A stretch of 36,003 nucleotides of DNA from an uncultured Bacteroides sp. Its GTDB lineage: Bacteria > Bacteroidota > Bacteroidia > Bacteroidales > Bacteroidaceae. The DNA lies in assembly GCA_947074345.1 (NCBI GenBank), contig CAMTPH010000021.1:1-36003 (forward strand), written 5' to 3'. This document shows, one piece after another, positions 14,066-29,486 of this stretch. The first letter of the stretch is position 1. Each line of letters opens with the position of its first letter. The notes under the pieces are model-generated. The model searched no databases and was not told the DNA's origin. It was given only the letters and a program-made list of their open reading frames with translations. A program made the translations under genes and the position numbers.

Positions 14066-16654
14066 ATGAATTTTAACAACTTTACAATCAAATCACAAGA
14101 GGCCGTTCAAGAAGCTATTAACCTAGTGAATGGTAATGGCCAGCAAGCTATTGAGCCTGTTCACTTATTGGCAGGATTGATGAAAGTGGGTGAAAACGTA
14201 ACGAACTTTATCTTTCAGAAGCTTGGAGTAAATGGACAACAAGTTTCGTTGGTTTTAAGTAAGCAGATAGAGTCATTGCCCAAAGTCTCGGGTGGTGAAA
14301 CTTATTTAAGTAGAGAGTCTAATGAAGTATTGCAAAAAGCAAATCAATATGCCAAAGAGATGGGCGACGAGTTCGTTTCTCTTGAAGCGATATTGCTAGC
14401 TATACTCCATGTTAAGAGTACTGCTGCAACCATATTGAAAGATGCGGGAGTTACCGAAAGAGAGGCTCGAGCAGCCATAACCGAACTACGCAAAGGCGAA
14501 AAAGTTACCTCGCAATCGAGTGAAGATACTTATCAATCGCTCGAAAAATATGCAATCAACTTAAACGAAGCTGCTCGTCTTGGCAAATTAGACCCTGTAA
14601 TTGGTCGCGATGACGAGATACGAAGAGTATTGCAGATATTAAGCCGACGTACTAAGAATAATCCAATCTTAATTGGTGAACCGGGTACCGGTAAAACTGC
14701 AATCGTCGAAGGGTTGGCGCACCGTATATTAAGAGGTGATGTGCCCGAAAACTTAAAGAACAAAACCATCTTTTCGCTCGATATGGGTGCACTGGTTGCC
14801 GGCGCTAAGTTTAAAGGCGAATTTGAAGAACGTTTAAAATCGGTAGTCAATGAAGTAAAGAAATCGGAAGGTGACATCATTCTGTTTATCGATGAAATAC
14901 ATACACTAGTTGGTGCCGGAAAAGGTGAAGGCGCAATGGATGCTGCCAACATTCTAAAACCGGCTTTGGCACGTGGTGAACTTCGTTCTATAGGTGCTAC
15001 TACACTCGACGAATACCAAAAGTATTTCGAAAAGGATAAAGCCCTCGAACGCCGTTTCCAAATAGTTCAGGTGGATGAGCCCGATACGTTGAGCACAATC
15101 TCTATACTCCGCGGCTTGAAAGAAAGATACGAGAACCACCATCATGTACGTATTAAAGATGATGCTATAATTGCTGCTGTAGAACTAAGTAGCCGCTACA
15201 TCACCGATCGTTTCTTGCCCGATAAGGCCATCGACTTAATGGACGAAGCTGCTTCTAAACTTCGTATGGAGGTAGACTCATTGCCCGAAGAGTTAGATGA
15301 AATTTCTCGTCGTATTCGTCAGTTAGAGATTGAACGCGAGGCTATCAAACGAGAAAAAGATCAGCCTAAAATGGACACCATCAGCAAAGAATTGGCCGAC
15401 TTGAAAGACCAAGAGAAGTCATTGAAAGCTAAATGGCAAAGCGAAAAAACACTGATGGATAAGATTCAAGACAACAAAGTGCAGATTGAGAATCTTAAGT
15501 TTGAAGCAGATAAAGCCGAACGAGAAGGCGATTATGGTAAAGTGGCCGAGATACGCTACGGCAAACTTGAAGCTTTAACCAAAGAGATAGAAGATATTCA
15601 AGAAGAGCTGAAAAGCATGCAAGGCGATAAAGCGATGATCAAAGAGGAAGTTGATGCCGAAGATATAGCTGATGTAGTATCGCGCTGGACAGGTATTCCT
15701 GTAAACAAGATGCTGCAAAGCGAAAAGGATAAATTGCTGCACTTAGAAGAAGAACTTCACCAACGTGTGATAGGTCAAGATGAAGCTATTGCGGCAGTAT
15801 CGGATGCTGTGCGTCGTAGTCGCGCCGGATTGCAAGACCCTAAACGTCCTATTGGTTCGTTTATCTTCTTAGGTACTACCGGTGTGGGTAAGACTGAGTT
15901 GGCAAAAGCATTAGCCGAATTCTTGTTCGACGATGATTCGATGATGACTCGTATAGACATGAGCGAATATCAAGAGAAACATAGTGTATCGCGCTTGGTT
16001 GGAGCGCCTCCCGGATATGTAGGATACGATGAAGGTGGTCAGTTGACTGAAGCTATTCGTCGCAAACCATACTCGGTTGTACTGTTCGACGAGATAGAAA
16101 AAGCACATCCTGATGTATTCAATATCTTATTGCAAGTATTGGATGATGGCCGATTGACAGACAACAAAGGTCGTGTGGTGAACTTTAAAAATACAATCAT
16201 CATTATGACTTCGAATATGGGTAGTTCGTTTATTCAAGCACAAATGGAGAAACTCCATGGCGATAATAAGGAACAAGTTATCGAAGAGACTAAACAAGAA
16301 GTAATGAATATGTTGAAAAAGACTATTCGCCCTGAATTCTTGAATCGTATTGACGAAACAATCATGTTCTTGCCGCTCAACGAACAAGAAATTAAGCAAA
16401 TCGTGTTGCTACAAATCAAGTCTGTACAATCGATGCTTGCAGGCAATGGTGTAGACTTACAGCTCACTGATAGCGCTATCGACTTTATTTCGAAGGCTGG
16501 TTTCGATCCAGAGTTTGGCGCTCGCCCGGTAAAAAGAGCTATTCAACGCTATCTATTGAATGATCTTTCGAAGAAATTGCTTGCTCAAGAAGTAGACCGT
16601 ACGAAGCCAATTATAGTGGATACAAATGAAATGGAGTTGACATTTAGAAACTAA
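14066..16654 (+). CDS. clpB: ATP-dependent disaggregase ClpB
   Basis: Cytoplasmic hexameric Hsp100 that pulls proteins out of aggregates together with DnaK; 862 aa, full length. Domains in order: the N-terminal double Clp repeat (1-145), AAA+ domain 1 with Walker A GEPGTGKT (204-211) and Walker [11 protein letters not shown], the coiled-coil middle domain (about 400-530, rich in E/K heptads, the contact site for DnaK), and AAA+ domain 2 with Walker A GTTGVGKT (603-610) and Walker [16 protein letters not shown]. The C-terminal domain has [20 protein letters not shown]. Both arginine-finger regions are present. It is monocistronic with a strong terminator, and its upstream region shares elements with dnaK, suggesting common stress control. 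Confidence 0.98.
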
Positions 16655-16702: not shown

Positions 16703-16766
16703 GATAACTGTTAACTATTATCAGGTGAAATGTATATAAGTAGGGCGATAACTATTAACAGTTATC
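16703..16766 (+). repeat. 64-bp element, copy 1: two 20-bp near-palindromes 44 bp apart
   Basis: Box A GATAACTGTTAACTATTATC (16703-16722) and box B GATAACTATTAACAGTTATC (16747-16766) are separated by 24 bases. The whole unit matches the reverse complement of 28206-28269 at 52 of 64 positions (20/20, 14/24, 18/20). Box B also forms the core of the clpB terminator stem. Confidence 0.85.
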
Positions 16767-16777
16767 GCCCTACTTAT
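16736..16777 (+). terminator. Terminator of clpB
   Basis: Perfect 18-bp stem around loop ATTAAC: ATAAGTAGGGCGATAACT pairs with AGTTATCGCCCTACTTAT. It is a strong hairpin about 80 bases after the stop codon, followed by GTTATATATG, so only a weak U-tract. Confidence 0.8.
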
Positions 16778-16798
16778 GTTATATATGATACTAAAATC

Positions 16799-16834
16799 AA
16801 TAGGGCCACATAGATGAATCTATATGGCCCTATT
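16799..16834 (-). terminator. Terminator of the nusB-to-DUF5606 cluster
   Basis: AATAGGGCCA / TGGCCCTATT outer stem (10 bp), one C-A mismatch, then ATAGA/TCTAT with a TGAA loop. Read on the minus strand it is followed by GATTTTAG. It lies 25 bases beyond the DUF5606 stop codon. Confidence 0.85.
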
Positions 16835-16858
16835 GTTATCTATTAATGTAATATCTTA

Positions 16859-17290
16859 TTATTCAGCAGCTTCAGCAGCTTCTTCTTCAGATGCTTCTTC
16901 AGCGAAATCAGCTAAATCGTTTGCAACCAAGATATTGTACCATTGAATCAATTTCTTGATATCAGTTACATATACACGGTCACGGTCGAAGTTAGGCAAT
17001 ACTTCAGCCATGAAAGCACGAAGTTCTTCTGGTTTTGCTTTTTTAGTATCGATTTCAACAGCAGCACCGTTTTCTTTAGTTTTGATTGATTCGAATACTT
17101 CACGCAAAGGCACTTCTTCATCATCAGTATACATAGCGATATCTGCTAATGAGATGATTTTCTCGTTACCGTAAGCTGGGAAACGTTTTTTAGTTGCATC
17201 GATTGCTTCAACAATCAACATATTTTTTCCTTGTGAAACAAGTTTATATAATCCCGGTTTACCCGAAATAGACAAAATAGTCTTCAACAT
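16859..17290 (-). CDS. DUF5606 domain protein
   Basis: Small soluble protein, 143 aa, of a Bacteroidota-specific family of unknown function. The N-terminal part (MLKTILSISGKPGLYKLVSQ, GKNMLIVEAID, KRFPAYGNEKIISLADIAMY) looks like a small beta-barrel. A helical region follows with LRAFMAEVLPNFDRDRVYVT and DIKKLIQWYNILV, and then a low-complexity acidic tail EEASEEEAAEAAE. It is the last gene of the coaE cluster, 25 bases downstream of coaE, and precedes a strong terminator. No catalytic residues were recognised. Confidence 0.9.
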   Translation of the reverse strand: MLKTILSISGKPGLYKLVSQGKNMLIVEAIDATKKRFPAYGNEKIISLADIAMYTDDEEVPLREVFESIKTKENGAAVEIDTKKAKPEELRAFMAEVLPNFDRDRVYVTDIKKLIQWYNILVANDLADFAEEASEEEAAEAAE

Positions 17291-17315
17291 GGTATATTTC
17301 TTTTATATTAATAAT

Positions 17316-17930
17316 TTATTTTTTTGCAGGGCAAAGGTAGCGATTATTTTGAGATAGAGAAGAAATTAACTCTAAAACCTGTGGTATTAACGGTATTTCA
17401 CCATCGTTTAGAATCGTATAGTGAGCATGTAGTTTCTTCTCTTCATCACTCATTTGAGCTTCAATGCGTTTGCGTATTAACTCTTCAGACACGTTATCAC
17501 GAGCCATTGCACGCTTCAAACGCACATCAACCGGCGCATATACCATCACAATATGATCGACTGTATCGGCAAAACCTGACTCTACAAGTATTGCAGACTC
17601 CATAGCAATGATAGGACAAGACGAATGGTTCATGGCCCATTGTTTAAAATCGTCTTTTACTACAGGATGTATGATTTGATTAATGCGAGTTGCGTTTTCT
17701 GCATTAGCAAATAGATAGGAAGCAAGAAGTGGCTTGTTTAACTCACCATTGTTATAAATCTCTGCACCAAGCAAACTAGAAAGTTTCTCTTGAATATCAG
17801 GATGAGTTAAAGTAAGCATCTTAGCTCTATCATCAGAAATATATACAGGGATATTTAAAACCTCCAATAGTTTGGATACAACACTCTTACCAGAACCTAT
17901 GCCTCCGGTAATACCTAATTTAATATTCAT
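17316..17930 (-). CDS. coaE: Dephospho-CoA kinase
   Basis: Last enzyme of coenzyme A synthesis: phosphorylates the ribose 3'-OH of dephospho-CoA with ATP. The protein is 204 aa, usual length. The P-loop GGIGSGKS is at residues 9-16. Substrate-binding segments include VYISDDRAKML, HPVVKDDFKQW and the lid region RLKRAMARDNVSEELIRKRI. It overlaps the upstream ybbR-like gene by 11 bases, so its translation is probably coupled to it. Confidence 0.96.
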   Translation of the reverse strand: MNIKLGITGGIGSGKSVVSKLLEVLNIPVYISDDRAKMLTLTHPDIQEKLSSLLGAEIYNNGELNKPLLASYLFANAENATRINQIIHPVVKDDFKQWAMNHSSCPIIAMESAILVESGFADTVDHIVMVYAPVDVRLKRAMARDNVSEELIRKRIEAQMSDEEKKLHAHYTILNDGEIPLIPQVLELISSLSQNNRYLCPAKK

Positions 17931-18936
17931 TAATCAAAGAATTTTGTTCTATTAAGAAGTCTACTTGATCGGGGATTATTCTAATTTGCTTAACTCCTAG
18001 TGGCGCTTCTTCAAGAGTAACCAAGCATTTATCTGATTTACTTTTTAGCAATTCATTGTACGATACTGCTACCAGAAAATCGCTAGCTGTTATATCTTTA
18101 AATCGAGCCATCCCTATTTGAAATGTTATCTGCACCTTAGAAGGGAAAGTTCTTAGAATCTTGTCTGATGGAAAATCAAGACCAACAATGGGCACTTCTA
18201 CAGTTTTCTCTGTATAAACATCGGTCAGCAAAGTACATTTCACAATGGAAGGAGTAAATTTGGCCCCTTTCACTTTTGCTAAATCTACAGCTCTAACCAA
18301 AGTGTCAGACACATTGGTATATTGTACATAATTGGTGTAAGCAGCAGTGATTGTATCTAAAATAGAAACTGGCGCATAAACCATCACCGAGTCGGGAGAG
18401 AATATAGTATCTGATATATAATATTGACGAGCAGGCGTCAATCGTCCTCGCAGTTTTATAGGTACTATCTTTGATTTTCCTTTTGAATAAATGTAATCTA
18501 TTGTATCGGGAAAGACAGACACTAAACGCGACGAAACATTTAATTGATTCATCACTTTACGCTCAATATCAGAAGAGCGCACTTTAACATGATTGTCCTT
18601 TACGGGATCTTCATTAAAATCGATAGCTATTGGAGTAAAGCTACGTTTTAATAAATAATTAAATAGCACTGTTCCCCTATCCTTCACCACTACATCAACA
18701 GTTGCAGGTAGTTCAGAAGTGATAACCACATTTTCGGGAACATCCTTTAAACGAATAGGAATAGATAATTCGGTTTCGTACTCGTTATCTAATGTTTGAA
18801 GTAACCAAAACCCTGATGCAATGAGCACAAAACACAAAAAGATTAAAAACTCTCTGCTCTTTGGACTGAGCAGAAAGTTCTTAATCTTTCTAGAAAACTT
18901 CAAATAAAGATGTCTGGCATTGTTACGTTTTAACAT
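17920..18936 (-). CDS. YbbR-like domain protein (CdaR-type)
   Basis: Membrane-anchored protein, 338 aa. A short basic cytoplasmic N-terminus leads into one transmembrane helix (FLIFLCFVLIASGFWLLQTL, about residues 34-53). The rest is outside the membrane and built of YbbR-like beta domains, visible as repeating segments such as SIPIRLKDVPENVVITSELP, IVPIKLRGRLTPARQYYISD and VEVPIVGLDFPSDKILRTFP. In Firmicutes the YbbR protein CdaR modulates the diadenylate cyclase CdaA; here no cyclase gene is adjacent, so that role is not shown. It overlaps coaE by 11 bases and follows yajC by 15 bases. Confidence 0.88.
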   Translation of the reverse strand: MLKRNNARHLYLKFSRKIKNFLLSPKSREFLIFLCFVLIASGFWLLQTLDNEYETELSIPIRLKDVPENVVITSELPATVDVVVKDRGTVLFNYLLKRSFTPIAIDFNEDPVKDNHVKVRSSDIERKVMNQLNVSSRLVSVFPDTIDYIYSKGKSKIVPIKLRGRLTPARQYYISDTIFSPDSVMVYAPVSILDTITAAYTNYVQYTNVSDTLVRAVDLAKVKGAKFTPSIVKCTLLTDVYTEKTVEVPIVGLDFPSDKILRTFPSKVQITFQIGMARFKDITASDFLVAVSYNELLKSKSDKCLVTLEEAPLGVKQIRIIPDQVDFLIEQNSLINEY

Positions 18937-18951
18937 CTTACTGAACTTTAA

Positions 18952-19278
18952 TTATTTTGGTTGCTGCGCAGCTGACGTAGCATCTGCGAAAATAGAATTC
19001 TTGTCGATAGTAATCTTAACGTTGTTTGCAATCTCAAGAACTACTGAGTCATCAGCAATCTCTTTAATAACACCGTGAATACCACCAGCAGTAATCACTT
19101 TTTGATTTACTTGAAGTGATTTTCTAAAATTAGCAATTTGTTTTTGTTTCTTGTTTTGTGGACGAATCATGAAAAAATACATGATAACAAACATACCAAT
19201 TAACATGATCCACAATAAACTTCCATTCTGTGCAGGAGCCGGAGCTTGCAATAATACTGTTACTAAGTTCATAAACAT
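18952..19278 (-). CDS. yajC: Preprotein translocase auxiliary subunit YajC
   Basis: Small inner-membrane protein of the SecDF-YajC complex, 108 aa. One transmembrane helix (LLWIMLIGMFVIMYFFMI, about 23-40) is followed by the family signature RPQNKKQKQIANFRKSLQVN, then GGIHGVIKEIADDSVVLEIA and a basic/polar cytoplasmic domain. It lies 42 bases downstream of nusB and 15 bases upstream of the ybbR-like gene, a common Bacteroidales order. Confidence 0.95.
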   Translation of the reverse strand: MFMNLVTVLLQAPAPAQNGSLLWIMLIGMFVIMYFFMIRPQNKKQKQIANFRKSLQVNQKVITAGGIHGVIKEIADDSVVLEIANNVKITIDKNSIFADATSAAQQPK

Positions 19279-19320
19279 TCGATTTTTTAATTGTTTGACT
19301 TATATAAAGGAATAAACAAA

Positions 19321-20244
19321 TTATTTATTTAGTTTACCCTCTTTCTTCAATTGGTTAACTATACCATCTAACGTTCCATTTATGAAACTACCGCTTTTTA
19401 TAGTACTATAAAGTTTAGCGATATCTACATATTCATTCAACGAAACATTAACTGGAATATTTGGGAAACTCAAAATCTCAGCAAGTGCAATCTGCATAAT
19501 GATAACATCCATAAATGCAACACGATCGAACTCCCAATTCTTCACGTTATCACTAATTAAATGACGATAATATTCAGCATTTAAAATAGTACGACGGAAT
19601 AATCGACGAGCAAACTCTTGATCTTCTTCATCTTTAAATTCTGGTAATAAAGGTTGTTTAGAACCTTGCTCTTCTTCAAAACGCTTAATCGTTTTAAGAA
19701 CAAATGTATCAACAATCTCTTTATCATCATTCCAATAAAGACTTTGATCTTCTAAAACTTGGTCTAAAGCATCATTATTAAAAATGAAGTTTTTGTAAAC
19801 CTTTCTCCAAAACTCCTTATCAGCAGCATACGAGTTGTCTTCTGAAGACATATACTCTTTATACAAATCTGAAGCAGCGATTTTATCAAATAACTCTTTG
19901 ATAAAGTCTTGATCATTGTCCCAAGTACGTTTTTGATTATTGATAAATTCAAGTAGTTGAGAATTTACTTCTAATTGAGCGATGAATTTGTTTTCAACAA
20001 ATTTCATGTTTGGATGCAACTCATCTTTAGTAGGCTGTAGTTTACCCTTTGCAGCGTCTATACGTTTACGCGCATATTCCGTCAAAGCAACCATAAGCAT
20101 CAAAAGATAGTTATAAAGATCGTATGCTTTTGAAAGGCTAAAGAACAACTCTTTTTCCGCTGAATCCAAGTTTTTACTTCCATTCTGATAGTAAGCATAT
20201 ACTATCTGTATGATTTTTAGACGAATAAGAACTCTGTTAATCAT
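19321..20244 (-). CDS. nusB: Transcription antitermination factor NusB (long Bacteroidota form)
   Basis: RNA-binding factor that joins NusE/S10 on boxA for antitermination of rRNA transcripts. The NusB helical core lies at the C-terminus (about 195-305: RRLFRRTILNAEYYRHLISD, VAFMDVIIMQIALAEILSFP, VNVSLNEYVDIAKLYS, then SGSFINGTLDGIVNQLKKEG). The N-terminal two-thirds is an extra helical region, the reason the protein is about twice the E. coli length. I start it at the ATG at 20244 (MINRVLIRLKIIQIVYAYYQ); a TTG at 20262 would add only six residues. A full -7 box lies 34 bases upstream. First gene of the nusB-yajC-ybbR-coaE-DUF5606 run. Confidence 0.93.
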   Translation of the reverse strand: MINRVLIRLKIIQIVYAYYQNGSKNLDSAEKELFFSLSKAYDLYNYLLMLMVALTEYARKRIDAAKGKLQPTKDELHPNMKFVENKFIAQLEVNSQLLEFINNQKRTWDNDQDFIKELFDKIAASDLYKEYMSSEDNSYAADKEFWRKVYKNFIFNNDALDQVLEDQSLYWNDDKEIVDTFVLKTIKRFEEEQGSKQPLLPEFKDEEDQEFARRLFRRTILNAEYYRHLISDNVKNWEFDRVAFMDVIIMQIALAEILSFPNIPVNVSLNEYVDIAKLYSTIKSGSFINGTLDGIVNQLKKEGKLNK

Positions 20245-20277
20245 AAATCTTTTAAAATACAATTATTATATGAATTG

Positions 20278-20285
20278 CAAAAGTA
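20278..20285 (-). promoter_or_regulatory. -7 box of the nusB operon
   Basis: On the minus strand the sequence is TACTTTTG, a full TAnnTTTG match placed 34 bases before the ATG. The predicted transcription start is near 20270, which would exclude the TTG start at 20262 from a leadered message. Confidence 0.6.
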
Positions 20286-20423
20286 GCGATTTTTAATGAG
20301 TAAACATAAATAAATGGCTTTTTTTTATATTGCTTTTCATTCTCTTTACGTTTTTCTTGGGTGATTAAAAAAAATAAATCAAATTTGAAGCCAAAATAAA
20401 GTATACTTAGAGGAAAACTCATT

Positions 20424-20786
20424 ATGGAAGATATTAAAAAGAAAACTGGAACAGACATGAATGATAAAGAGATTGTATTCTCTAAATCTATCAAAGCAGG
20501 CAAACGCATATACTACCTTGACGTTAAGAAAAACAGAAAGGATGAAATGTTTTTAGCAATAACAGAAAGCAAAAAAATAATAAGTGGCGAAGGAGACAAC
20601 GCACAAGTTAGCTTCGAAAAACATAAAATATTCTTATATAAAGAGGATTTTGAAAAGTTTTCTAATGGTTTAGCTCAAGCAATTGACTTTATTAATGGCA
20701 AACAACCTAATCCAATTCAAGAAGCTACAACTGTCGATAATCAAGAAAATGATGGCGAAATCAAGATAGATATTGATTTTGAGTAA
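20424..20786 (+). CDS. PUR-family DNA/RNA-binding protein (DUF3276)
   Basis: Small nucleic-acid-binding protein, 120 aa, of the bacterial PUR-alpha-like family (DUF3276). The single PUR repeat runs from about residue 14 to 95: EIVFSKSIKAGKRIYYLDVK, DEMFLAITESKK, SFEKHKIFLYKEDFEKFSNG and LAQAIDFIN. The C-terminal tail is acidic (DNQENDGEIKIDIDFE). In Borrelia the related EbfC-independent PUR protein BpuR binds DNA and RNA and acts as a regulator; in Bacteroidota the targets are unknown. The gene stands alone, divergent from nusB; the promoter of rplY begins right after its stop codon. Confidence 0.88.
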   Translation: MEDIKKKTGTDMNDKEIVFSKSIKAGKRIYYLDVKKNRKDEMFLAITESKKIISGEGDNAQVSFEKHKIFLYKEDFEKFSNGLAQAIDFINGKQPNPIQEATTVDNQENDGEIKIDIDFE

Positions 20787-20793
20787 GTAATAT

Positions 20794-20824
20794 TTTGATA
20801 TTTCAGAAAGAAAGCATAATTTTG
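20794..20824 (+). promoter_or_regulatory. Complete Bacteroidetes promoter of rplY
   Basis: TTTG (20794-20797), a 19-base spacer, then TAATTTTG (20817-20824): the consensus TTTG-N19-TAnnTTTG. It is the best-formed promoter in the window. The expected start is near 20830, leaving a leader of about 90 bases. Confidence 0.8.
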
Positions 20825-20870
20825 CACCGCTTTTTGCACATCGGGCGGACTTCCGCAGCGTGTGATGGTG
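20825..20870 (+). ncRNA. Structured 5' leader of rplY, candidate cis-regulatory RNA
   Basis: A GC-rich island in an AT-rich region that can fold into nested helices: CACC/GGTG outermost (20825-20828 with 20867-20870), CACA/TGTG (20837-20840 with 20861-20864), and GCGG/CCGC with an ACTT tetraloop (20845-20848 with 20853-20856), with internal loops between. It follows the promoter directly. The folding is by eye. Autoregulation by L25 is inference, and I recognise no named RNA family. Confidence 0.45.
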
Positions 20871-20920
20871 AATTAAGCAAAACAATTACTTAATTTAGAG
20901 TAACACAAAAAATTAAAAAA

Positions 20921-21514
20921 ATGAGATCAATTGAAGTAAAAGGAACTGCAAGAACAATTGCAGAACGCTCTTCTGAACAAGCTAGAGCTTTGAAAGAAAT
21001 CCGTAAAGACGGTGGTGTACCATGTGTATTGTATGGAGGTGAAGAAGTTGTTCACTTTACTGTACCAGCAGAAGGTTTGCGTAACTTAGTTTTCACTCCT
21101 CACATCTACGTAGTTAATCTTTCAGTAGACGGTAAAGAAGTAAAAGCTATCATGAAAGATATTCAATTTCACCCAGTGAAAGACACTATCATTCACGTTG
21201 ACTTTTTCCAAATCAACGAAACTACTCCTATCGTAATGGAAGTTCCAGTACAACTAGAAGGTTTAGCAGAAGGTGTTAAAGCAGGGGGTAAATTGGTTCT
21301 ACAAAGCCGTAAGTTGAAAGTTAAAGCATTATATACAATCATTCCTGAGAAATTGACTGTAAATGTTGCTCACTTAGGTCTTGGTAAAACAGTTCAAGTA
21401 GGCGAATTAAGCTTCGAAGGTCTTGAATTATTGAATTCTAAAGACGCCGTAGTATGTGCAGTTAAGTTGACTCGTGCCGCAAGAGGTGCAGCAGCTGCAG
21501 CAGCAGGAAAATAA
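20921..21514 (+). CDS. rplY: 50S ribosomal protein L25 (CTC form)
   Basis: Ribosomal protein that binds 5S rRNA; 197 aa, the long general-stress (CTC) form with two domains. The N-terminal 5S-binding beta-barrel includes VKGTARTIAERSSEQARALK, the motif EIRKDGGVPCVLYGGEEVVH and IMKDIQFHPVKDTIIHVDFF. The C-terminal domain (about 95-190) includes VPVQLEGLAEGVKAGGKLVL and ends in an alanine-rich tail. It is transcribed from its own strong promoter with a structured leader and ends at a terminator, so it is monocistronic or only partly linked to pth, which is 105 bases downstream. Confidence 0.97.
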   Translation: MRSIEVKGTARTIAERSSEQARALKEIRKDGGVPCVLYGGEEVVHFTVPAEGLRNLVFTPHIYVVNLSVDGKEVKAIMKDIQFHPVKDTIIHVDFFQINETTPIVMEVPVQLEGLAEGVKAGGKLVLQSRKLKVKALYTIIPEKLTVNVAHLGLGKTVQVGELSFEGLELLNSKDAVVCAVKLTRAARGAAAAAAGK

Positions 21515-21545
21515 TCTTACTGTTAAGATATACAAACATATCATT

Positions 21546-21590
21546 GAAACGCAGATTACCACAGACAAGTTCTGTGTTAGTCTGCGTTTC
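21546..21590 (+). terminator. Terminator of rplY
   Basis: Arms 21546-21565 and 21571-21590 pair at 18 of 20 positions (GAAACGCAGA... with ...TCTGCGTTTC, inner CACAGA/TCTGTG). A 5-base loop closes the stem, and TTTATTC follows. Confidence 0.85.
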
Positions 21591-21619
21591 TTTATTCATT
21601 TCAATTACATATTATTTAT

Positions 21620-22183
21620 ATGAAATACCTGATTGTTGGATTAGGAAACATTGGTCCTGAATACCGAGATACAAGACATAATATCGGATTTATGGTGGTC
21701 GATAAACTAGCGAAGCTAAATAACGTACCATTTTCTAGTGGTCGATATGGATCAACTGCTACATTTTCTTTAAAAGGACATCAGATTATTTTGCTCAAGC
21801 CATCTACCTTTATGAACCTTAGTGGATTGGCAGTACGCTATTGGATGCAACAAGAAAAGATTCCTTTGGAGAATGTATTGATTGTTGTAGACGACTTAGC
21901 TCTACCATTTGGCGTTCTTCGTTTGAAGCCTCAAGGAAGCGATGCCGGACACAACGGCTTGAAGCATATTGCTACTACCCTAGCCACACAAACCTACAAT
22001 CGTTTGCGCTTTGGTATTGGCAATGATTATCCTAGAGGTCGCCAAGTAGAGTATGTACTCGGACAATTTACAGATGAAGATTGGACTACAATGGATGAGC
22101 GTTTAGAGATGGCTTGCGATATTATCAGAAGTTTCTGTTTAGCAGGCATGAATATTACAATGAACCAGTACAATAAGAAATAA
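21620..22183 (+). CDS. pth: Peptidyl-tRNA hydrolase
   Basis: Cytoplasmic enzyme that frees tRNA from stalled peptidyl-tRNA; 187 aa, usual length. The active-site signature [19 protein letters not shown] holds Asn10 and the catalytic His20. [34 protein letters not shown] and [14 protein letters not shown] supply the other conserved residues, followed by [13 protein letters not shown]. The next gene starts six bases after its stop codon, so the two form an operon of translation-rescue functions. Confidence 0.97.
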
Positions 22184-22189
22184 AATATT

Positions 22190-22612
22190 ATGGCTGAAGC
22201 TAGAATTGATAAATGGTTATGGGCAGCACGTATCTTTAAGACTCGCACAATTGCTGCAGAAGCTTGCAAGAAAGGGAGAGTGAGCATAAACGGCTCATTT
22301 ATTAAAGCTTCACGTATGATAAAAGTAGGTGATGTAATACAAGTTAAGAAATCACCTATCACTTATTCTTTTAAAGTATTACAAACAATAGAGAGAAGAG
22401 TTGGTGCTAAGTTAGTACCCGAAGTAATGGAAAATGTTACCACTCCCGATCAATACGAATTGTTGGAGATGAGTAAAATCAGTGGTTTCATTGATAGAGC
22501 TCGCGGAACTGGCCGCCCTACTAAAAAGGACAGAAGAAGCATAGAGGAATTTACTGCTCCAGAGTTTATGTCCGATTTTGACTTTGATTCAATCGACGAA
22601 GATGATGAATAA
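22190..22612 (+). CDS. S4-domain RNA-binding protein (Hsp15/RqcP-like)
   Basis: Small RNA-binding protein, 140 aa. The S4 domain covers about residues 4-60: ARIDKWLWAARIFKTRTIAA, ACKKGRVSINGSFIKAS and MIKVGDVIQV. The basic C-terminal region (RARGTGRPTKKDRRSIEEF) and the acidic tail (DFDFDSIDEDDE) are typical of this group. In E. coli Hsp15 (HslR) binds 50S subunits carrying a nascent chain, and in Bacillus RqcP aids tailing of stalled peptides. Its position six bases after pth, which also rescues peptidyl-tRNA, fits a ribosome-rescue role. This is inference from context. Confidence 0.9.
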   Translation: MAEARIDKWLWAARIFKTRTIAAEACKKGRVSINGSFIKASRMIKVGDVIQVKKSPITYSFKVLQTIERRVGAKLVPEVMENVTTPDQYELLEMSKISGFIDRARGTGRPTKKDRRSIEEFTAPEFMSDFDFDSIDEDDE

Positions 22613-22617
22613 AAAAT

Positions 22618-22649
22618 AAGCTGACACTTAATGGATAAGATGTCAGCTT
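22618..22649 (+). terminator. Terminator of the pth operon
   Basis: Nine-bp stem AAGCTGACA / TGTCAGCTT with a 14-base loop, followed by TATTTTTATAT. It sits five bases after the S4-protein stop codon and can also serve the convergent HIT gene. Confidence 0.85.
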
Positions 22650-22677
22650 TATTTTTATATCGTAAGCAATGCAAATA

Positions 22678-23103
22678 TTAAAGATTTGCTTTGATTGCGT
22701 CAATAATCTTTTGATAACCTAGTTCAGTCAAATGTACTTTTCCTGGGTTCATTTGGAATGTACCACCATAATCAGGACCATTCACATATTTAGGAACAAG
22801 GTGAAAGTGTAAGTGAGAAAGTTTATCAGAGTATGCACCATAGTTAATCTTTTCAGGATTAAATGCTTTTTGCATAGCACGAGTTACATGTACAACGTCA
22901 GCCATAAATGCGTTACGTTCTTCATCACTCAATTCATTTAAGTCATTCACATGGTCTTTGTAAGCCACTAGGCAACGACCGTGATAAGTTTGTTCTTTAA
23001 ATAAGAAAAGACGCGAAACACCCAATTGAGCAACTTCAATCATTATATTGTGCAATGCATCATTGTTTTGACAGTATATACAGTCTTTTGGATCACTTTT
23101 CAT
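22678..23103 (-). CDS. HIT-family nucleotide hydrolase
   Basis: Histidine-triad protein, 141 aa, of the Hint type, which hydrolyses AMP-linked phosphoramidates or related nucleotides. The triad HLHFH (His97, His99, His101) within SHLHFHLVPKY is the active site. An N-terminal CxxC (Cys8, Cys11) suggests a structural zinc with later ligands. HGRCLVAYKDHVNDLNELSD is the conserved substrate-side strand. It lies 70 bases downstream of the antiporter gene and has its own possible -7 box (TATTTTTG on the minus strand, 23135-23142), so it may be read alone or with the antiporter. The physiological substrate is unknown. Confidence 0.93.
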   Translation of the reverse strand: MKSDPKDCIYCQNNDALHNIMIEVAQLGVSRLFLFKEQTYHGRCLVAYKDHVNDLNELSDEERNAFMADVVHVTRAMQKAFNPEKINYGAYSDKLSHLHFHLVPKYVNGPDYGGTFQMNPGKVHLTELGYQKIIDAIKANL

Positions 23104-23172
23104 GATTTCGATATATTAAATATTTATTTTTCTACAAAAATAACCAAAAGTTTATCTTATTATGTAGACTTT

Positions 23173-25425
23173 TTAATTCTTTTGTCCTACTAATTGATAA
23201 ACATCTTCTTTTTCTCCCACAATCCACAAGATGTCACCTTCATTAAAAGGCTCATCAATATTAACAGAAACCGAAAGGTTATTGTTTCGTTCTACCCCCG
23301 CAATAAAACAATGATATTTATCACGAATGCCCGATTCTTTAATTGATTTACCTAAAAAGGCAGAATCAGCATCAATCATAAATTGTCTTAATATCATTTC
23401 ATGCTTCTCGTATGCATCGGCCTCAATTGTTATTTTTTGGGCAATAATCTCTCCAAAAAGGTTCAGTTGTTCATCTGTACCTATCACTTGAATGTTGTCA
23501 AAAGGGAATAGTTGAACACGCCCACCTGGAATATTGATTCGTTTTTTACCACGAAGAATAGATGTGATATGCACACCATATGTTTTAGCAAAATTAAGTT
23601 GAGCAAGAGTCTTACCAGCCAACATTGATTCGGCAGGTATTTCAAAATCGCCCATTTGGAGATCATGCGACAACAACTGTCCGGCATACGATGGTTTTGC
23701 ATTACCCAAGTATTGATCGCGCATATCTCGCGAACGAAGATTCTGAAAGAATTGGCGTTCGAGCAATATAGATTGTCTTTTAAGGCGTCGCGAACCAATC
23801 ATAACTCCGATAATCAGAATAGCAGCACCAATCATCAACCCTACCGATGCCTTGAATAAGCCGGCTATAACAAACATAACAAAAGTAATGGCAATCATCA
23901 TTCTGAAGACAATCGTTGCCACCAATGGAGCACGATTAGAACGATGATCATTCCACAAAGCCATAAACTCTATAGAATGATTCTTTTTTATCATTATTGC
24001 TCGGAGGAAAGGCGATATTAATAAGATGGTAACCGTAGTACCTATTAGAGAGCCCCAGAAATCAGATAAATGTTCTCTTAAGAAAGGAGTAACCCAATTG
24101 AAAGAGATAAAAACGACTGCAAGACTAAGAATTGTATAAACAACTACAATTCTCAACATAGCCATCAGCAAGCGCTTCCATAAGTTCTCTTGATTTACAG
24201 TTTGCGCACCACAACTATATCGATTCAGAAAGTTACGCCATGATAGAGGCATACGCTTTTCTACAAATTCAGAAGCAGGATCGGCCAATCGAATCATATA
24301 CGGAGTAAGAAAAGTGGTTATAACCGAAACCGCTACCACGATTGGATATAAGAAAGAACTTGTCACTTTCAACGAAACCCCCATTGAAGCAATAATAAAA
24401 GCAAACTCACCGATTTGCGTTAAGCTAAATCCGCACTGCATGGCTGTTTTCAATGGTTTGCCGGCCAATAGAACCCCACAAGTAGCAAAAATCGATTGCC
24501 CCAATATCACTACTAGGGTAACAACGATAATAGGAACGATATAATTGCCAATCATCACCGGGTCGACCATCATACCAACCGATACAAAAAATATAGCACC
24601 AAACAGATTCTTTACAGGTTTCACTAAGTGTTCTATCGATTCAGCCTCAACAGTTTCGGCAAGAATAGAACCCATGATAAATGCCCCAAAAGCAGCCGAA
24701 AAACCAGCCTTATCGGCCAATACAACCATACCAAAGCACAAGGCTAATGAGACAATCAACAATGTTTCATCATTCATCAATTTGCGGCATCGCTTTAAGA
24801 ACTGAGGAATAAGATAGATACCCACAACAAACCAAAGTATCAAGAAGAATATTAACTTACCGATACTATAAAGCATATCAGCGCCCTGAAAATGATTACT
24901 TACCGAAAGCGTAGATAATACCACCATCAGCACAATGGCCAAGATATCTTCGATAATCAAAATGCTGAGTACAAGACTAGCGAACCGCTTCTTTATCAGT
25001 CCTAAATCTTCGAAAGCCTTATAAATAATGGTAGTCGACGACATGGCAATCATCCCACCCAAGAAGATGCAATCCATCCGTTTCCATCCGAAACTCATCC
25101 CGGCCCCTACCCCAAGCAGCATCATACAAAAGATAATGGTACAAGCAGCAATAACAGCCGGCCCTCCGACCTTCATTATCTTTTTAAAACTAAATTCGAG
25201 ACCTAAAGCAAAGAGTAAGAATATGATACCTATTTCGGCCCAAGTGGCGATACTCGCCTTATCGATTACTGATGGAGTGAAAGATATATGTGGACTAGCC
25301 AATAAACCGGCAACAATATATCCTAAAACTAAAGGTTGTTTTAGCTTTTTGAAGATAAGAGTCATGACACCGGCACAAACCAATATCAACGCCAAGTCAG
25401 CAATTAAAGCGGGTAAATGAGACAT
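23173..25425 (-). CDS. CPA2 (Kef-type) cation:proton antiporter with two TrkA-C domains
   Basis: Membrane antiporter, 750 aa. The first about 385 residues carry 12-13 hydrophobic helices of the Na+/H+ exchanger fold, with LVLGYIVAGLLASPHIS, IGIIFLLFALGLEFSF and AAFGAFIMGSILAETVEAES as family landmarks. Four more predicted helices lie at about 410-545, an insertion not present in E. coli KefB/KefC. The C-terminal cytoplasmic part has two RCK_C/TrkA-C modules in place of a KefC TrkA-N domain: GDFEIPAESMLAGKTLAQLN (about 590-665) and MIDADSAFLGKSIKESGIRD to GDILWIVGEKEDVYQLVGQ (about 680-748). Such domains often sense nucleotides such as c-di-AMP. K+ or Na+ efflux is likely but not provable here. 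Confidence 0.9.
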   Translation of the reverse strand: MSHLPALIADLALILVCAGVMTLIFKKLKQPLVLGYIVAGLLASPHISFTPSVIDKASIATWAEIGIIFLLFALGLEFSFKKIMKVGGPAVIAACTIIFCMMLLGVGAGMSFGWKRMDCIFLGGMIAMSSTTIIYKAFEDLGLIKKRFASLVLSILIIEDILAIVLMVVLSTLSVSNHFQGADMLYSIGKLIFFLILWFVVGIYLIPQFLKRCRKLMNDETLLIVSLALCFGMVVLADKAGFSAAFGAFIMGSILAETVEAESIEHLVKPVKNLFGAIFFVSVGMMVDPVMIGNYIVPIIVVTLVVILGQSIFATCGVLLAGKPLKTAMQCGFSLTQIGEFAFIIASMGVSLKVTSSFLYPIVVAVSVITTFLTPYMIRLADPASEFVEKRMPLSWRNFLNRYSCGAQTVNQENLWKRLLMAMLRIVVVYTILSLAVVFISFNWVTPFLREHLSDFWGSLIGTTVTILLISPFLRAIMIKKNHSIEFMALWNDHRSNRAPLVATIVFRMMIAITFVMFVIAGLFKASVGLMIGAAILIIGVMIGSRRLKRQSILLERQFFQNLRSRDMRDQYLGNAKPSYAGQLLSHDLQMGDFEIPAESMLAGKTLAQLNFAKTYGVHITSILRGKKRINIPGGRVQLFPFDNIQVIGTDEQLNLFGEIIAQKITIEADAYEKHEMILRQFMIDADSAFLGKSIKESGIRDKYHCFIAGVERNNNLSVSVNIDEPFNEGDILWIVGEKEDVYQLVGQKN

Positions 25426-25447
25426 CTTAGAAATATTTAATTTCTTA

Positions 25448-25480
25448 CAAAAATATAGGAAATTAACTTATCAACACAAA
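25448..25480 (-). promoter_or_regulatory. Promoter of the antiporter gene
   Basis: Minus strand: TTTG (25477-25480), a 21-base spacer, and TATTTTTG (25448-25455), which fits TTTG-N19-21-TAnnTTTG. It sits 22 bases before the start codon. Confidence 0.65.
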
Positions 25481-25522
25481 AGGAGTATAAAAAGTTTCGG
25501 CCTATTTGTGAAGATAAAACAA

Positions 25523-25564
25523 GCATGCCGATTCGAAGACTATTCTATCTTCAAATCGGCATGC
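25523..25564 (-). terminator. Terminator of the pepT-gcvT operon
   Basis: Outer stem GCATGCCGATT / AATCGGCATGC (11 bp) with an inner GAAGA/TCTTC stem after one mismatch. It lies 27 bases beyond the gcvT stop codon. Read on the minus strand it is followed by TTGTTTTATC. Confidence 0.88.
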
Positions 25565-25590
25565 CATATATTTATACTTATTTCAGTTGC

Positions 25591-26676
25591 TTATTTACGA
25601 AAAGGAGGACGCACCACTTTAGCTTTCAATTTGCGACCACGAACCTCAACAAAGATTTCCGTATCGAGTGGCGTGTATTCAGGTTTTACGTATCCCATAC
25701 CAATTCCTATTTTGCGAATAGGCGACATAGTACCCGATGTAACAACACCAATCACTTCACCATCGCCATTCAACAGTTCGTATCCTTGACGAGGAATGCC
25801 ACGATCAATCAATTCGAAACCGATAAGTTTTCGAGATGTACCCTCTTTCTTTTGCTTTTCGAGCAGCGGACGATCTATAAATTCTTTTCCATCTACAAAC
25901 TTGGTAATCCATCCCAATCCCGCTTCGATAGGCGAAGTAGCATCATCAAGTTCGTGACCATATAGACAGAATCCGGCTTCAAGTCTAAGTGTATCGCGCG
26001 ATCCTAATCCTGCAGCCTTAATACCAAACTCTTCGCCTGCCTTAAACACAGCATTCCAAATAGTTTGAGCATCATTAGGATAGAAGTACAACTCAAATCC
26101 ACCTGCACCGGTATAGCCTGTATTTGATATGATTACATCTTTCACACCGGCTATCTCGCCTACTTTGAATGTATAGTAAGGAATAGTCGACAAATCAATG
26201 TCAGTTAACTTTTGAAGTGTAGCTTGCGCTTTAGGTCCTTGTATAGCCAACTGAGCAATATTATCAGACGAGTTCTCTAAAATAGCACCCATTGGATTGT
26301 TAACATTGCACCATGCCCAGTCTTTCTCGATGTTAGCAGCATTTACAACCAACATATATTTATCTTCGGCATATTGATAAACAAGCAAGTCGTCTACAAT
26401 TCCGCCCTTGCCATTAGGGAAACAAGTATATTGCACCTTGCCTGGCGATAGAGCAGCCACATTGTTGGATGTTACGTGTTGCAAAAAAGAGAGAGCATTA
26501 GGCCCTTTCACCCAAAATTCTCCCATATGAGAAACATCAAAAACACCCACCGCATTGCATACAGTGAGGTGTTCGTCGATGATTCCTGTATATTCTATAG
26601 GCATATTATAGCCTGCAAATTCGTGCATCTTACCTCCAAGAGAGATATGATTGTTTGTAAATGGTGTAGTTTTCAT
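25591..26676 (-). CDS. gcvT: Glycine cleavage system T protein (aminomethyltransferase)
   Basis: Transfers the methylene group from the aminomethyl-lipoyl H protein to tetrahydrofolate in glycine cleavage; 361 aa, usual length. Landmarks are [36 protein letters not shown] and the folate-site strand [14 protein letters not shown]. The adenine/folate-binding arginine region [20 protein letters not shown] and the C-terminal barrel ([20 protein letters not shown]) are also present. It follows pepT by 30 bases in one operon. The other glycine-cleavage genes (gcvH, gcvP) are not in the window, as is usual when the system is split in Bacteroides. Confidence 0.96.
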
Positions 26677-26706
26677 GTGAATAGTATAATAAGGTTGATT
26701 TAAGTT

Positions 26707-27933
26707 TTATGCTTGTTGTGCTACTAGCTCAGCAATCTTAACGATTACGTTTTGAGCCTTCTCCATATTTTGAATTGGAATAAACTCGAAACGGCCATGG
26801 AAATTTAATCCACCAGCAAAGATATTTGGACAAGGCAAACCTTTGAACGAAAGTTGAGCACCATCAGTTCCACCACGAATTGGCTTAACATTAGGTTTAA
26901 CACCTACTGCTTCCATCGCTTTAAAAGCTGTATCGATGATGTGCATTACAGGTTCAATCTTTTCGCGCATATTGTAGTACTGATCTTTCATATCGAGAGT
27001 TGCTGTACCTTCGCCATGACGCTTGTTGATTTCGGCCACCCAGTCAATCATACTTTGTTTGCGCTTTTCAAAGATAGCACGATCATGATCGCGGATAATG
27101 TAAGAAACCGTAGTCTCTTCTACCGAACCCTGTATACCGATAAGGTGATAGAAACCTTCGTATTTAGAAGTATGCTCAGGAGCTTCTTGGCTTGGCAACA
27201 ATGAAATAAACTCATTAGCAATTGTAATAGAGTTAATCATTTTGTTTTTAGCATAACCAGGATGTACGTTGCGGCCTTTGAAAGTAATTTTGGCACCGGC
27301 AGCATTAAAATTTTCGTACTCTAATTCGCCTAAATCACCACCATCCATTGTATAAGCCCATTCGCAACCGAACTTCTCTACATCAAACTTGTGCGCACCT
27401 AAACCGATTTCTTCATCAGGGTTGAAACCAACACGAATCTTACCATGTTTAATTTCAGGATGAGCTTTCAAGTATTCGATAGCCGACATGATTTCTGCGA
27501 TACCGGCTTTATCATCAGCACCAAGAAGTGTTGTACCATCGGTAACAATCAAGTCTTCGCCTTTATGGTCTAAAAGTTCAGGAAATTGCACCGGACTCAA
27601 AACTATGTTTTGTTCAGCATTCAGCACGATGTCTGTACCATCGTATTTCTCAACGATACGAGGTTTTACATCTTTGCCACTCATATCAGGACTAGTATCC
27701 ATGTGAGCAATAAAGCCGATAGTTGGCACCGGTTTGTCTATGTTAGCAGGAAGAGTAGCAAAAAGGTAGCCATTCTCATCCAACGAAATATCTTCTAATC
27801 CTAACGATTCTAATTCTGCTTTCAAAAATTTAGCAAACACCATTTGTCCTGGTGTACTAGGAGTTACCTGAGTTGAATCATCAGCTTGAGTATCAAAAGT
27901 TACATACTTTAAAAAGCGTTCTACTAATGTCAT
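26707..27933 (-). CDS. pepT: Peptidase T (tripeptide aminopeptidase)
   Basis: Cytoplasmic zinc M20 peptidase that cleaves the N-terminal residue of tripeptides; 408 aa, usual length. Metal and catalytic segments are all visible: [15 protein letters not shown] (first His and catalytic Asp), [14 protein letters not shown] (bridging Asp), [14 protein letters not shown] (catalytic Glu pair), [17 protein letters not shown] and [20 protein letters not shown], with the last His in [12 protein letters not shown]. It heads the pepT-gcvT operon. A candidate -7 box, TACCTTTA, lies on the minus strand at 27978-27985. Confidence 0.97.
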
Positions 27934-28205
27934 ATCAATATAAAAGTTAGTATAATAAATTGTGAATACATTTGCCGTAAAGGTAAAAAAAAGAGTGGAA
28001 TATCATAACTTGATAGATACATATTTTAAAGCTTTTAGTTAAATCGGATTTATCAAGTTACATTTTGTCAAATATTACTAGTTTGAAGATTATACTTCAC
28101 CCTATAATTACTACCATTATTGTTATAAAACAAACCAAACTCTATTATATAATCACTCACAATTAATTCTTTTAAAATGGATTTGTAAAGAGGTAGATAT
28201 CGTTT

Positions 28206-28269
28206 GATAACTGTTAACTGTTATCGCATTAGATATATACACCTAGCACGATAATAGTTAACAGTTATC
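28206..28269 (-). repeat. 64-bp element, copy 2: two 20-bp near-palindromes 44 bp apart
   Basis: GATAACTGTTAACTGTTATC (28206-28225) and GATAATAGTTAACAGTTATC (28250-28269) with 24 bases between. On the minus strand the unit matches 16703-16766 at 52 of 64 positions, the first box being identical over all 20 bases. Nothing else was recognised in the 480-base gene-free stretch 27934-28415 except the pepT -7 box. The two boxes here can also pair with each other at 19 of 20 positions (plus one G-T). Confidence 0.85.
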
Positions 28270-28415: not shown

Positions 28416-29486
28416 ATGTCGGCCGAAAACACTTCTAATCAAGAAAAGTCTTCAATATTGATAATCTATACCGGAGGTACAATAGGTATGGTAGAAGACC
28501 CTAAAACCGGTTCATTAGAGCCATTCGACTTTGAACATCTAGTTGACCATGTTCCTGAGTTAAAAGAGGCAAAGCATTTATATACCTCCATACAGTTCAA
28601 TCCGCCATTAGACTCTTCGCAGATTGGACCACAAGACTGGGCAAAGATGGCAAAAACTGTTGCCGACAACTATGATACGTACGATGGTTTTGTAATCTTG
28701 CATGGCACAGATACAATGGCCTATACAGCATCGGCACTTAGTTTCATGTTAGAAAACTTAAACAAGCCGGTCATTATAACAGGTTCGCAACTACCCATTG
28801 GCAGATTTCGCACAGATGGAAAAGAGAATCTTATCACAGCAATAGAAATCGCAGCTTCAAAAAGAAACAACATTGCGATAGTGCCCGAAGTGTGTATCTG
28901 TTTTCAAAATTACTTATTGAGGGGTAATAGGAGCAAAAAGATAAATGCTGATTATTTTCAAGCATTCGATTCATTCAACTATCCTCCATTGGCACACATC
29001 GGTGTTGAGATTGATATTAACGAAGAACTTGTATACAAACAGGCGTCTGTAAAGCCGTTGATTCCACATTACAACATGGACCCCAATGTCATTGCTTTAA
29101 GACTTCTACCGGGCATCACTCCCGATACGCTAAAAGGCATATTGAGTATACCAAACTTAAAGGGTATAGCTATGGAGACATTTGGTGTAGGCAATGCACC
29201 GAGTTTTCCTTGGTTCATCGATCTATTAAAAGAGGCTACAGACAGAGGAATCGTGATTGTAAATGTTACACAATGCATGGAGGGCTCTGTGGCCATGAAT
29301 ATTTATGATACAGGCAATGCAATGCTCGAAGCCGGCATTATCTCGGGATATGATATAACAACAGAAAGTGCCATAACCAAAATGATGTACTTATTTGGCG
29401 AAGGATACGAACCGGATAAGGTAAGGGAGTATATGAAGTGCGACTTGATAGGCGAAATGACTATTCATGATACGAAAGAGAACTAA
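28416..29486 (+). CDS. ansA: Type I L-asparaginase
   Basis: Cytoplasmic amidohydrolase converting asparagine to aspartate and ammonia; 356 aa. The first threonine motif ILIIYTGGTIGMVEDP (Thr19 and Thr22 region) and the second, GFVILHGTDTMAYTASALSF, with catalytic Thr-Asp, are intact. PVIITGSQLPIGRFRTDGKE and the regulatory C-terminal domain (LKGIAMETFGVGNAPSF, TQCMEGSVAMNIYDTGNAML) match the cytoplasmic type I enzymes. No signal peptide is present. It is divergent from pepT across the 480-base spacer that contains a 64-bp element. Confidence 0.95.
   Translation: MSAENTSNQEKSSILIIYTGGTIGMVEDPKTGSLEPFDFEHLVDHVPELKEAKHLYTSIQFNPPLDSSQIGPQDWAKMAKTVADNYDTYDGFVILHGTDTMAYTASALSFMLENLNKPVIITGSQLPIGRFRTDGKENLITAIEIAASKRNNIAIVPEVCICFQNYLLRGNRSKKINADYFQAFDSFNYPPLAHIGVEIDINEELVYKQASVKPLIPHYNMDPNVIALRLLPGITPDTLKGILSIPNLKGIAMETFGVGNAPSFPWFIDLLKEATDRGIVIVNVTQCMEGSVAMNIYDTGNAMLEAGIISGYDITTESAITKMMYLFGEGYEPDKVREYMKCDLIGEMTIHDTKEN

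Follow-up and report, generated by a model that had tools for sequence, protein, structure and literature searches.

Dispersed 66-bp sites of three palindromes at 22-bp pitch in a Bacteroides genome: candidates for a role in chromosome organisation or segregation

The stretch of DNA analysed here, which we call the window, comprises the 36,003 nucleotides at positions 1 to 36,003 of contig CAMTPH010000021.1 (C21 below) in assembly GCA_947074345.1, from an uncultured Bacteroides sp. The window carries two inverted copies of a palindromic element, one between the clpB and DUF5606/DUF6852 genes and the other between the genes for an M20-family peptidase and an asparaginase (Table 1). Both 64-bp copies are found exactly where a first-pass annotation, made from the letters alone, had placed them. 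Copy 1 matches the reverse-complemented copy 2 at 52 of the 64 bases, by a count made by eye on the alignment, and the outer boxes of both copies start 44 bp apart, as had been claimed. The outer boxes of that two-box description stand; the plain 24-bp spacer between them does not, since the spacer contains a third palindromic box. The account of copy 1 as a two-box unit needs a further qualification, because a flank that mirrors the spacer puts its second outer box inside a 42-nt inverted repeat.

The element belongs to a large family in the draft genome that contains the window (G000; 3.1 Mb, 183 contigs, 84% complete). We found 189 boxes there at ≤2 mismatches, against 0 for a reversed-pattern control, and 88 two-box pairs (≤3 mismatches) with the 44-bp start-to-start distance, which leaves exactly 24 bp between the boxes. 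The genome-wide scan proposed by the first-pass annotation thus returns 88 pairs at the exact spacing and not just the two copies. Only two copies, and no conserved box spacing in relatives, would have made a functional site family doubtful in its view; this is clearly not the case, as the 88 pairs and the 22-bp-pitch arrays of relatives described below attest. The anatomy of the family was taken from an alignment of 78 non-redundant G000 copies, the window copies included, with uniqueness judged by sequence; a recount by place gives 79 places, one of them new (L204). In this alignment the element measures 66 bp and consists of three 20-bp palindromes at a pitch of 22 bp. The outer boxes have the consensus YGATAAYWRTTAACWRTTATCR, and the weaker box inside the 24-bp spacer, consensus GYTRAATGTATATATTTARC, lies two bases from either neighbour. 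The whole element is a dyad, in that the most frequent form of box 3 is the reverse complement of that of box 1, and the commonest outer box retains two internal mismatches. Most outer-box positions are ≥95% invariant, a few toggle between two bases (e.g. 59% A / 41% G), and weaker preferences continue outside the element, where position -9 is A in 81%. A 66-column matrix of the family holds 85 bits; it gives the window copies scores of 96.5 and 80.4 and the next-best site in the window a score of -50. No site scores 5-60 bits in the element loci searched, a set from which L204 was excluded. L204 itself reaches 57 bits, and the model search gave some weaker matches elsewhere in G000, e.g. one on contig C71 at 40 bits. 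The L204 site (G000 contig C159, 1495-1560) has three strong boxes rather than a strong-weak-strong series and is intermediate between the local dialect and the TTAA dialect.

Placement in G000 was assessed with gene calls from a simple in-house codon-usage gene finder, under which one copy (L136) was classed differently in two runs. None of the 78 copies overlaps a predicted gene. Convergent genes flank 26 of them, tandem genes 30 and divergent genes 16, with 6 at contig edges, and 24 of the 30 copies in tandem gaps sit 50-150 bp beyond the upstream stop codon. The neighbouring genes have no functional theme, being mixed housekeeping, surface and metabolic genes as judged by eye and, for 10 neighbours, by Pfam. 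The elements are also spaced widely. The 41 contigs with 63 listed elements total 1.49 Mb and yield 22 gaps. None of these is shorter than 7.24 kb, although 7.5 gaps below 7 kb would be expected under uniform placement (P = 5e-5); without two elements that lack a verified second box, 20 gaps remain and 6.6 are expected below 7 kb (P = 3e-4). A shorter gap is possible because about 4 of the 88 pairs lie outside the listings used for spacing, and an unlisted element could shorten one.

Table 1. Features of the window and of related loci.
Feature	Location	Strand	Remark
ClpB	14066..16654	+	stop codon 48 bp ahead of copy 1
Copy 1, outer box 1	16703..16722	+	GATAAC..TTATC palindrome
Copy 1, central weaker box	16725..16744	+	GTGAAATGTATATAAGTAGG; two bases off each outer box
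Copy 1, outer box 3	16747..16766	+	
Copy 1, long inverted repeat	16736..16777	+	right half of spacer, box 3 and spacer-mirroring flank; 21-nt arms, 95% complementary
Second strong inverted repeat	16798-16835		between copy 1 and DUF5606 gene; 18-nt arms, 94%; terminator-like
DUF5606/DUF6852 protein	16859..17290	-	convergent with clpB; 92 bp past copy 1
M20-family peptidase	26707..27933	-	pepT of the first-pass annotation; start 272 bp from copy 2
Copy 2, outer box 3	28206..28225	-	family orientation is the - strand
Copy 2, central weaker box	28228..28247	-	
Copy 2, outer box 1	28250..28269	-	
Asparaginase	28416..29486	+	ansA of the first-pass annotation; start 146 bp from copy 2
Spacer-mirroring flanks	window 16736-16777, L001, L018, L023, L027, L031, L113, L114, L117, L129, L142		
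0.6-0.7-kb element, G106	L223, L225, L226, L230, L231, L234, L239, L241		about 3.73-4.44 kb in each

The two halves of each box vary largely independently of one another. Over 153 distinct 22-bp units from relatives, the left and right halves are complementary about as often as independence predicts at each variable position (e.g. 0.33 seen against 0.38 expected), and for the outer boxes of G000 (n = 156) complementarity is at or below expectation, bar differences of 0.01. A dimer on DNA would account for such independence, and with a 22-bp pitch successive dimers would come to lie on nearly the same face of the helix. A folded RNA would show compensation between the halves, so this result disfavours a general role as an RNA hairpin.

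Two-box pairs in the local dialect are confined to G000 in our searches: at ≤3 mismatches there are none in 99 relatives, 59 of which belong to the same genus, and among 158 genus genomes, 5, with G000 as one of them, have single boxes at ≤1 mismatch. A model built on diverged copies matches at least 19 of the 158, with most matches in G000, G181 and G180; each model search scored no more than a share of the candidates from a first look (150 per genome, 33 for the diverged-copy model), which makes the counts lower bounds. The loci recovered from relatives consist of tandem boxes at 22-bp pitch in other sequence dialects, near GATAAMTGTTMACAKTTATC in G181 and G180 and with NNTCARSTRTTAAYASYTGANN in several boxes of other relatives. 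A pattern of three STRTTAAYAS cores at 22-bp pitch is present in 27 of 158 genus genomes with up to 45 matches each (0-3 for controls), and among 393 genomes drawn from the order it matches G000 only. The exact patterns gave 0 matches in a viral collection and 0 in a genome collection, from which records related to the window may be excluded. One reversed control (SAYAATTRTS, with an AATT core) is itself a 22-bp-pitch palindrome array, and it matches G360 54 times, G444 12 times, G507 twice and G254 once. G360, G444 and G507 are from one family of the order, and the AATT-core matches in the four genomes are perhaps an analogous Bacteroidales array family or another repeat.

The positions of arrays are in part common to several species. 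By eye, arrays of close species have flanks in common (L158/L166, L159/L160, L163/L164 and L170/L172/L181). Two array regions of G106, a complete genome of 6.78 Mb, match Bacteroides finegoldii records, which points to Bacteroides as the genus of these relatives, and the G106 array at 1.327 Mb is also present in B. finegoldii, between an RNA methyltransferase gene and a DUF4294 gene. Six of 32 arrays in G181 and G180 adjoin a gene that also adjoins a G000 element, and 3 of these 6 share both genes; L261 is a further case of a shared position, with small predicted frames intervening. When genes of G181 and G180 are compared with G000, the ortholog is element-adjacent for 9 of 11 array-adjacent genes and for 5 of 11 other genes, while orthologs as such are not commoner in the G000 loci examined for array-adjacent genes (11/60) than for other genes (11/71). 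The boxes of L135 and L259 align in register; other pairs share the gap, not always the column.

A longer repeat accounts for some of the G106 arrays. This dispersed dyad element of 0.6-0.7 kb has 8 copies that are 84-96% identical, each with a TTAA array in the middle, so that 8 of the 20 G106 arrays sit within it. Other repeats of roughly 22-bp pitch, of the GAATATATAGAT and GCTATAATGATAT types, flank the array in this element, and several copies are close to orphan genes (AAA_14/DUF4143, Fic, PDDEXK_2, ORF6N). The element also occurs in B. finegoldii (NZ_OY725936.1, 92% identity), and part of it has an 80% match in an unannotated record of a phage collection, from human faeces (MT835639.1, 20956-21203).

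The position of arrays relative to the replication origin was tested in G106, G044, G021 and G030; G196 (too few gene calls) and G197 (no skew) were left out. The GC skew of G106 changes sign, from negative to positive, at 1.32-1.33 Mb, and one of the arrays is found there, at 1,326,666. Third-position GC skew is negative to the left and positive to the right of this switch in genes of both strands, AT skew is opposite, and 218 kb of coding sequence point away from the switch against 155 kb towards it. These skew signs and the coding direction are the usual marks of an origin. Within a quarter of the origin-terminus distance lie 11 of the 20 G106 arrays (≤2 mismatches; P = 6e-4 for the mean). 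Arrays also cluster round the skew-predicted origin in G044 (P = 3e-4), in G021 (P = 1e-4), where 5 of 5 arrays are near it, and less strongly in G030 (P = 0.025). The array cluster of G044 predicted a switch near 4.3 Mb, and skew samples bracket it at 3.96-4.56 Mb. The four arrays of G196 that fall outside the repeated subfamily lie in 0.73 Mb. There was no convincing dif match near the skew switch, and no 16S motifs, sought to orient replication, in the DNA examined. A Hi-C study of B. caecimuris and others places parS clusters at the origin (PMC10197239).

On balance, we think it just probable that the 66-bp element belongs to a dispersed set of some 90 cis-acting sites, recognised by a sequence-specific protein binding in dimers and with a role in chromosome organisation or segregation. 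The element is best read as a lineage-specific multi-dimer site for a putative chromosome-acting protein; the protein, its oligomeric state and its role are what we infer from the sites. Each 20-bp palindrome with its two linker bases would occupy 22 bp, close to two helical turns, so that three dimers could sit next to each other along the same face of the helix in a strong-weak-strong series, with weak further half-sites outside, and dimers may bind cooperatively at a chromosome-wide set of such sites. The site may have become a fixed compact dyad in the species of G000, and in other Bacteroides it would be an array of variable box number in another dialect. Since the elements occur in all gene orientations, their neighbours have no theme, the copies keep a distance from one another and the arrays in complete genomes of relatives gather round the predicted origin, chromosome organisation or segregation is the most likely role. 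Anchoring, domain formation, occlusion of division or the loading of another complex might each be served by such sites, rather than the control of individual genes. The proposal of the first-pass annotation that this is a site for a multimeric DNA-binding protein is accordingly well supported by the fixed geometry of 88 copies, the 22-bp pitch, the largely independent half-sites and the kept positions.

Several observations weigh against this reading, most of them concerning the origin. The arrays of G106, G044, G021 and G196 are partly of common descent, and these genomes are therefore not independent tests. The P value of G106 weakens to 0.015 without the 0.7-kb subfamily, and that of G030 becomes 0.041 when two places omitted at first, at 2.193 and 4.799 Mb, are restored; these match with 3 mismatches and look like another kind of repeat. 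If no origin estimate is used, clustering at P < 0.05 is seen in 2 of 5 genomes. The G106 switch is unusual for an origin in that no parS occurs at ≤2 mismatches in the 420 kb round it and in that its region is rich in polysaccharide-utilisation genes; the leading-strand gene bias is inconsistent in spaced samples, at 0.36-0.74. Distance to origin and terminus, a check suggested by the first-pass annotation, gives clustering in the relatives and no trend for G000 itself: its loci were placed on complete genomes, with few matches, and the placeable ones hit near, mid and far samples 5, 7 and 6 times (20 samples each). Position sharing between G000 and G181/G180 is modest, with about 1-2 cases sharing both genes expected by our own estimate. 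The variance of pairwise distances between copies is 10.7 against 7.2 under the column-shuffled null (null maximum 9.0), an excess owed in part to coupling between neighbouring positions, for instance 49 and 50. In the G000 central box, pairing exceeds expectation at the innermost position (0.88 vs 0.74). Lastly, the ParB-like HTH, the sole candidate family tested, shows no pattern that follows the arrays, and no binder was identified.

The same family could instead be a REP- or MITE-like non-autonomous mobile element, amplified by a trans-acting transposase and tolerated between genes. We consider this unlikely. It would account for a copy number that depends on the species (88 pairs in G000, none in the 99 relatives), for a fixed architecture at unlinked places, for the preferred distance past upstream stop codons in tandem gaps, for the excess distance variance and for the G106 arrays inside the 0.6-0.7-kb repeat, and the minimum spacing could reflect target immunity. 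The copies themselves, however, bear no sign of recent copying. The 79 places hold 79 different 64-mers, of which the closest pairs differ by 3 bases, and the column-shuffled null for the closest pair has a mean of 4.35 and a minimum of 1, so that the similarity among copies does not exceed what drawing each base independently by column frequency would give. Flanks of different copies agree at no more than 47 of 80 bases, target-site duplications of 3-9 bases show no excess over shuffles (78 copies, ≤2/78 at any length), and there are few weak copies in the G000 DNA examined. The Y1 transposase/RAYT family (PF01797), the one transposase family searched for, was not found in five draft genomes (63-92% complete) and is present in 5 of 14 control genomes. 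A REP/RAYT identity was rejected on the lack of a Y1 transposase in the five drafts, and a MITE with target-site duplication on the lack of a duplication excess in 78 copies. Positions common to several species and dialects that differ by species also speak against mobility. The mobile-element alternative raised by the first-pass annotation is thus disfavoured: there is no target-site duplication, no similarity beyond the motif, no more than a few weak copies and no RAYT in five drafts.

Operators of one global transcription regulator would explain the palindromic boxes, which are of operator type, and the 16 copies between divergent genes among the 72 with both neighbours; adjacent operator boxes are known from several regulators. 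This we regard as improbable, as a convergent gene pair, between which one expects no promoter, flanks 26 of the 72 copies, and the neighbours are mixed, with no theme by eye or in the 10 scanned with Pfam. Very improbable, in our judgement, are RNA-level hairpins, that is transcription terminators or RNA-stability elements at 3' ends. Many copies do come after stop codons, and the 201 nt around copy 1, including the second inverted repeat, fold strongly (z = -9.7). In addition, at 11 of 156 box sides the flank can pair with the spacer on the other side of the box (≥8/10), where 2.55 such sides would be expected and 2000 shuffles give 8 or fewer; we suppose that template switching at a palindrome could copy the spacer outward and so lengthen an array in register. 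Against hairpins stand the pairing of halves near or below independence nearly everywhere, the innermost central pair of G000 being the exception, the two internal mismatches kept by the commonest outer box, the copies in divergent regions and the lack of any Rfam match in the window; nine loci of relatives likewise had none. The half-site independence test led us to reject an RNA hairpin or terminator as the general function.

As for the protein that would bind the sites, HTH_ParB has one match each in G000 (84% complete) and G181 and 1-5 matches in 22 other genomes, with and without arrays. The single ParB gene of G000 is an ordinary ParB. A ParB paralog as the binder was rejected, there being no second ParB-type gene in G000 or G181 and no phyletic pattern. 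In a single case, L046 (G000 contig C3), an element sits 159 bp away from the start of a gene whose protein joins two HU-CCDC81 domains, of DNA-binding type, to a septum-binding SPOR domain.

Among known systems, the ram sites of RacA and the NBS of Noc in Bacillus subtilis are dispersed single short palindromes, each set bound by one protein and non-randomly placed with respect to origin and terminus, with roles in origin anchoring or division-site control. The present sites resemble them as dispersed palindromes with a non-random position between origin and terminus (here, in the relatives), and differ in having at least three boxes at a fixed 22-bp pitch instead of single short palindromes; as for Noc, neither G000 nor G181 has a ParB paralog besides ParB. 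The matS sites of MatP are dispersed short palindromes that mark one macrodomain of enterobacteria, the terminus, whereas the arrays of our relatives cluster at the predicted origin. Like parS, the sites are palindromic and near the origin, but their box sequence is unrelated to TGTTTCACGTGAAACA, and no parS-like site of that sequence lies inside any element in the scans made. REP and BIME sequences with their RAYT are numerous intergenic palindromes, often in inverted pairs and near 3' ends; here we found no RAYT in the five drafts, no general hairpin constraint and no sign of recent copying. The ARG boxes of ArgR and the three Ss-LrpB boxes are similar in being adjacent palindromes, spaced by roughly two to three helical turns, to which a single oligomer binds; they differ in serving as operators for individual genes. 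Within the Bacteroidales, one report describes BrickBuilt and other MITEs of Porphyromonas gingivalis with 23-nt tandem repeats of the unit AGAYCATARTATCCTCTCRTRTG, BrickBuilt having terminal inverted repeats (PMC4596501). By eye, this unit, as given there, is unrelated to the present boxes. Abundant intergenic TAACTGA heptamer repeats, found also in some Bacteroidetes, are 7-nt direct repeats that in the main genome studied lie mostly just upstream of start codons (PMC4679880). They are alike in intergenic abundance and differ, on that description, from palindromes at 22-bp pitch. A literature search, for which subscription papers were mostly beyond reach, found no description of these arrays.

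The B. caecimuris chromosome showed a secondary diagonal, that is aligned chromosome arms, in Hi-C published in 2023, and no known condensin was found in that study (PMC10197239). Arm alignment without a known condensin leaves a plausible vacancy for such a system, and we do not claim that the sites fill it. As a more daring and doubtful extension, the arrays might be the DNA end of an undescribed Bacteroides system of chromosome organisation or segregation, in which origin-centred sites would nucleate a protein filament, protein and site would co-evolve fast enough to give species dialects, and the missing factor behind the arm alignment of B. caecimuris would have a candidate. Constrained dispersed sites that centre on the predicted origin in relatives offer a direct handle, with the 66-bp DNA as a possible bait. 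Because the sites diverge in place from one species to the next, the family would also exemplify a binding code in many copies that changes genome-wide.

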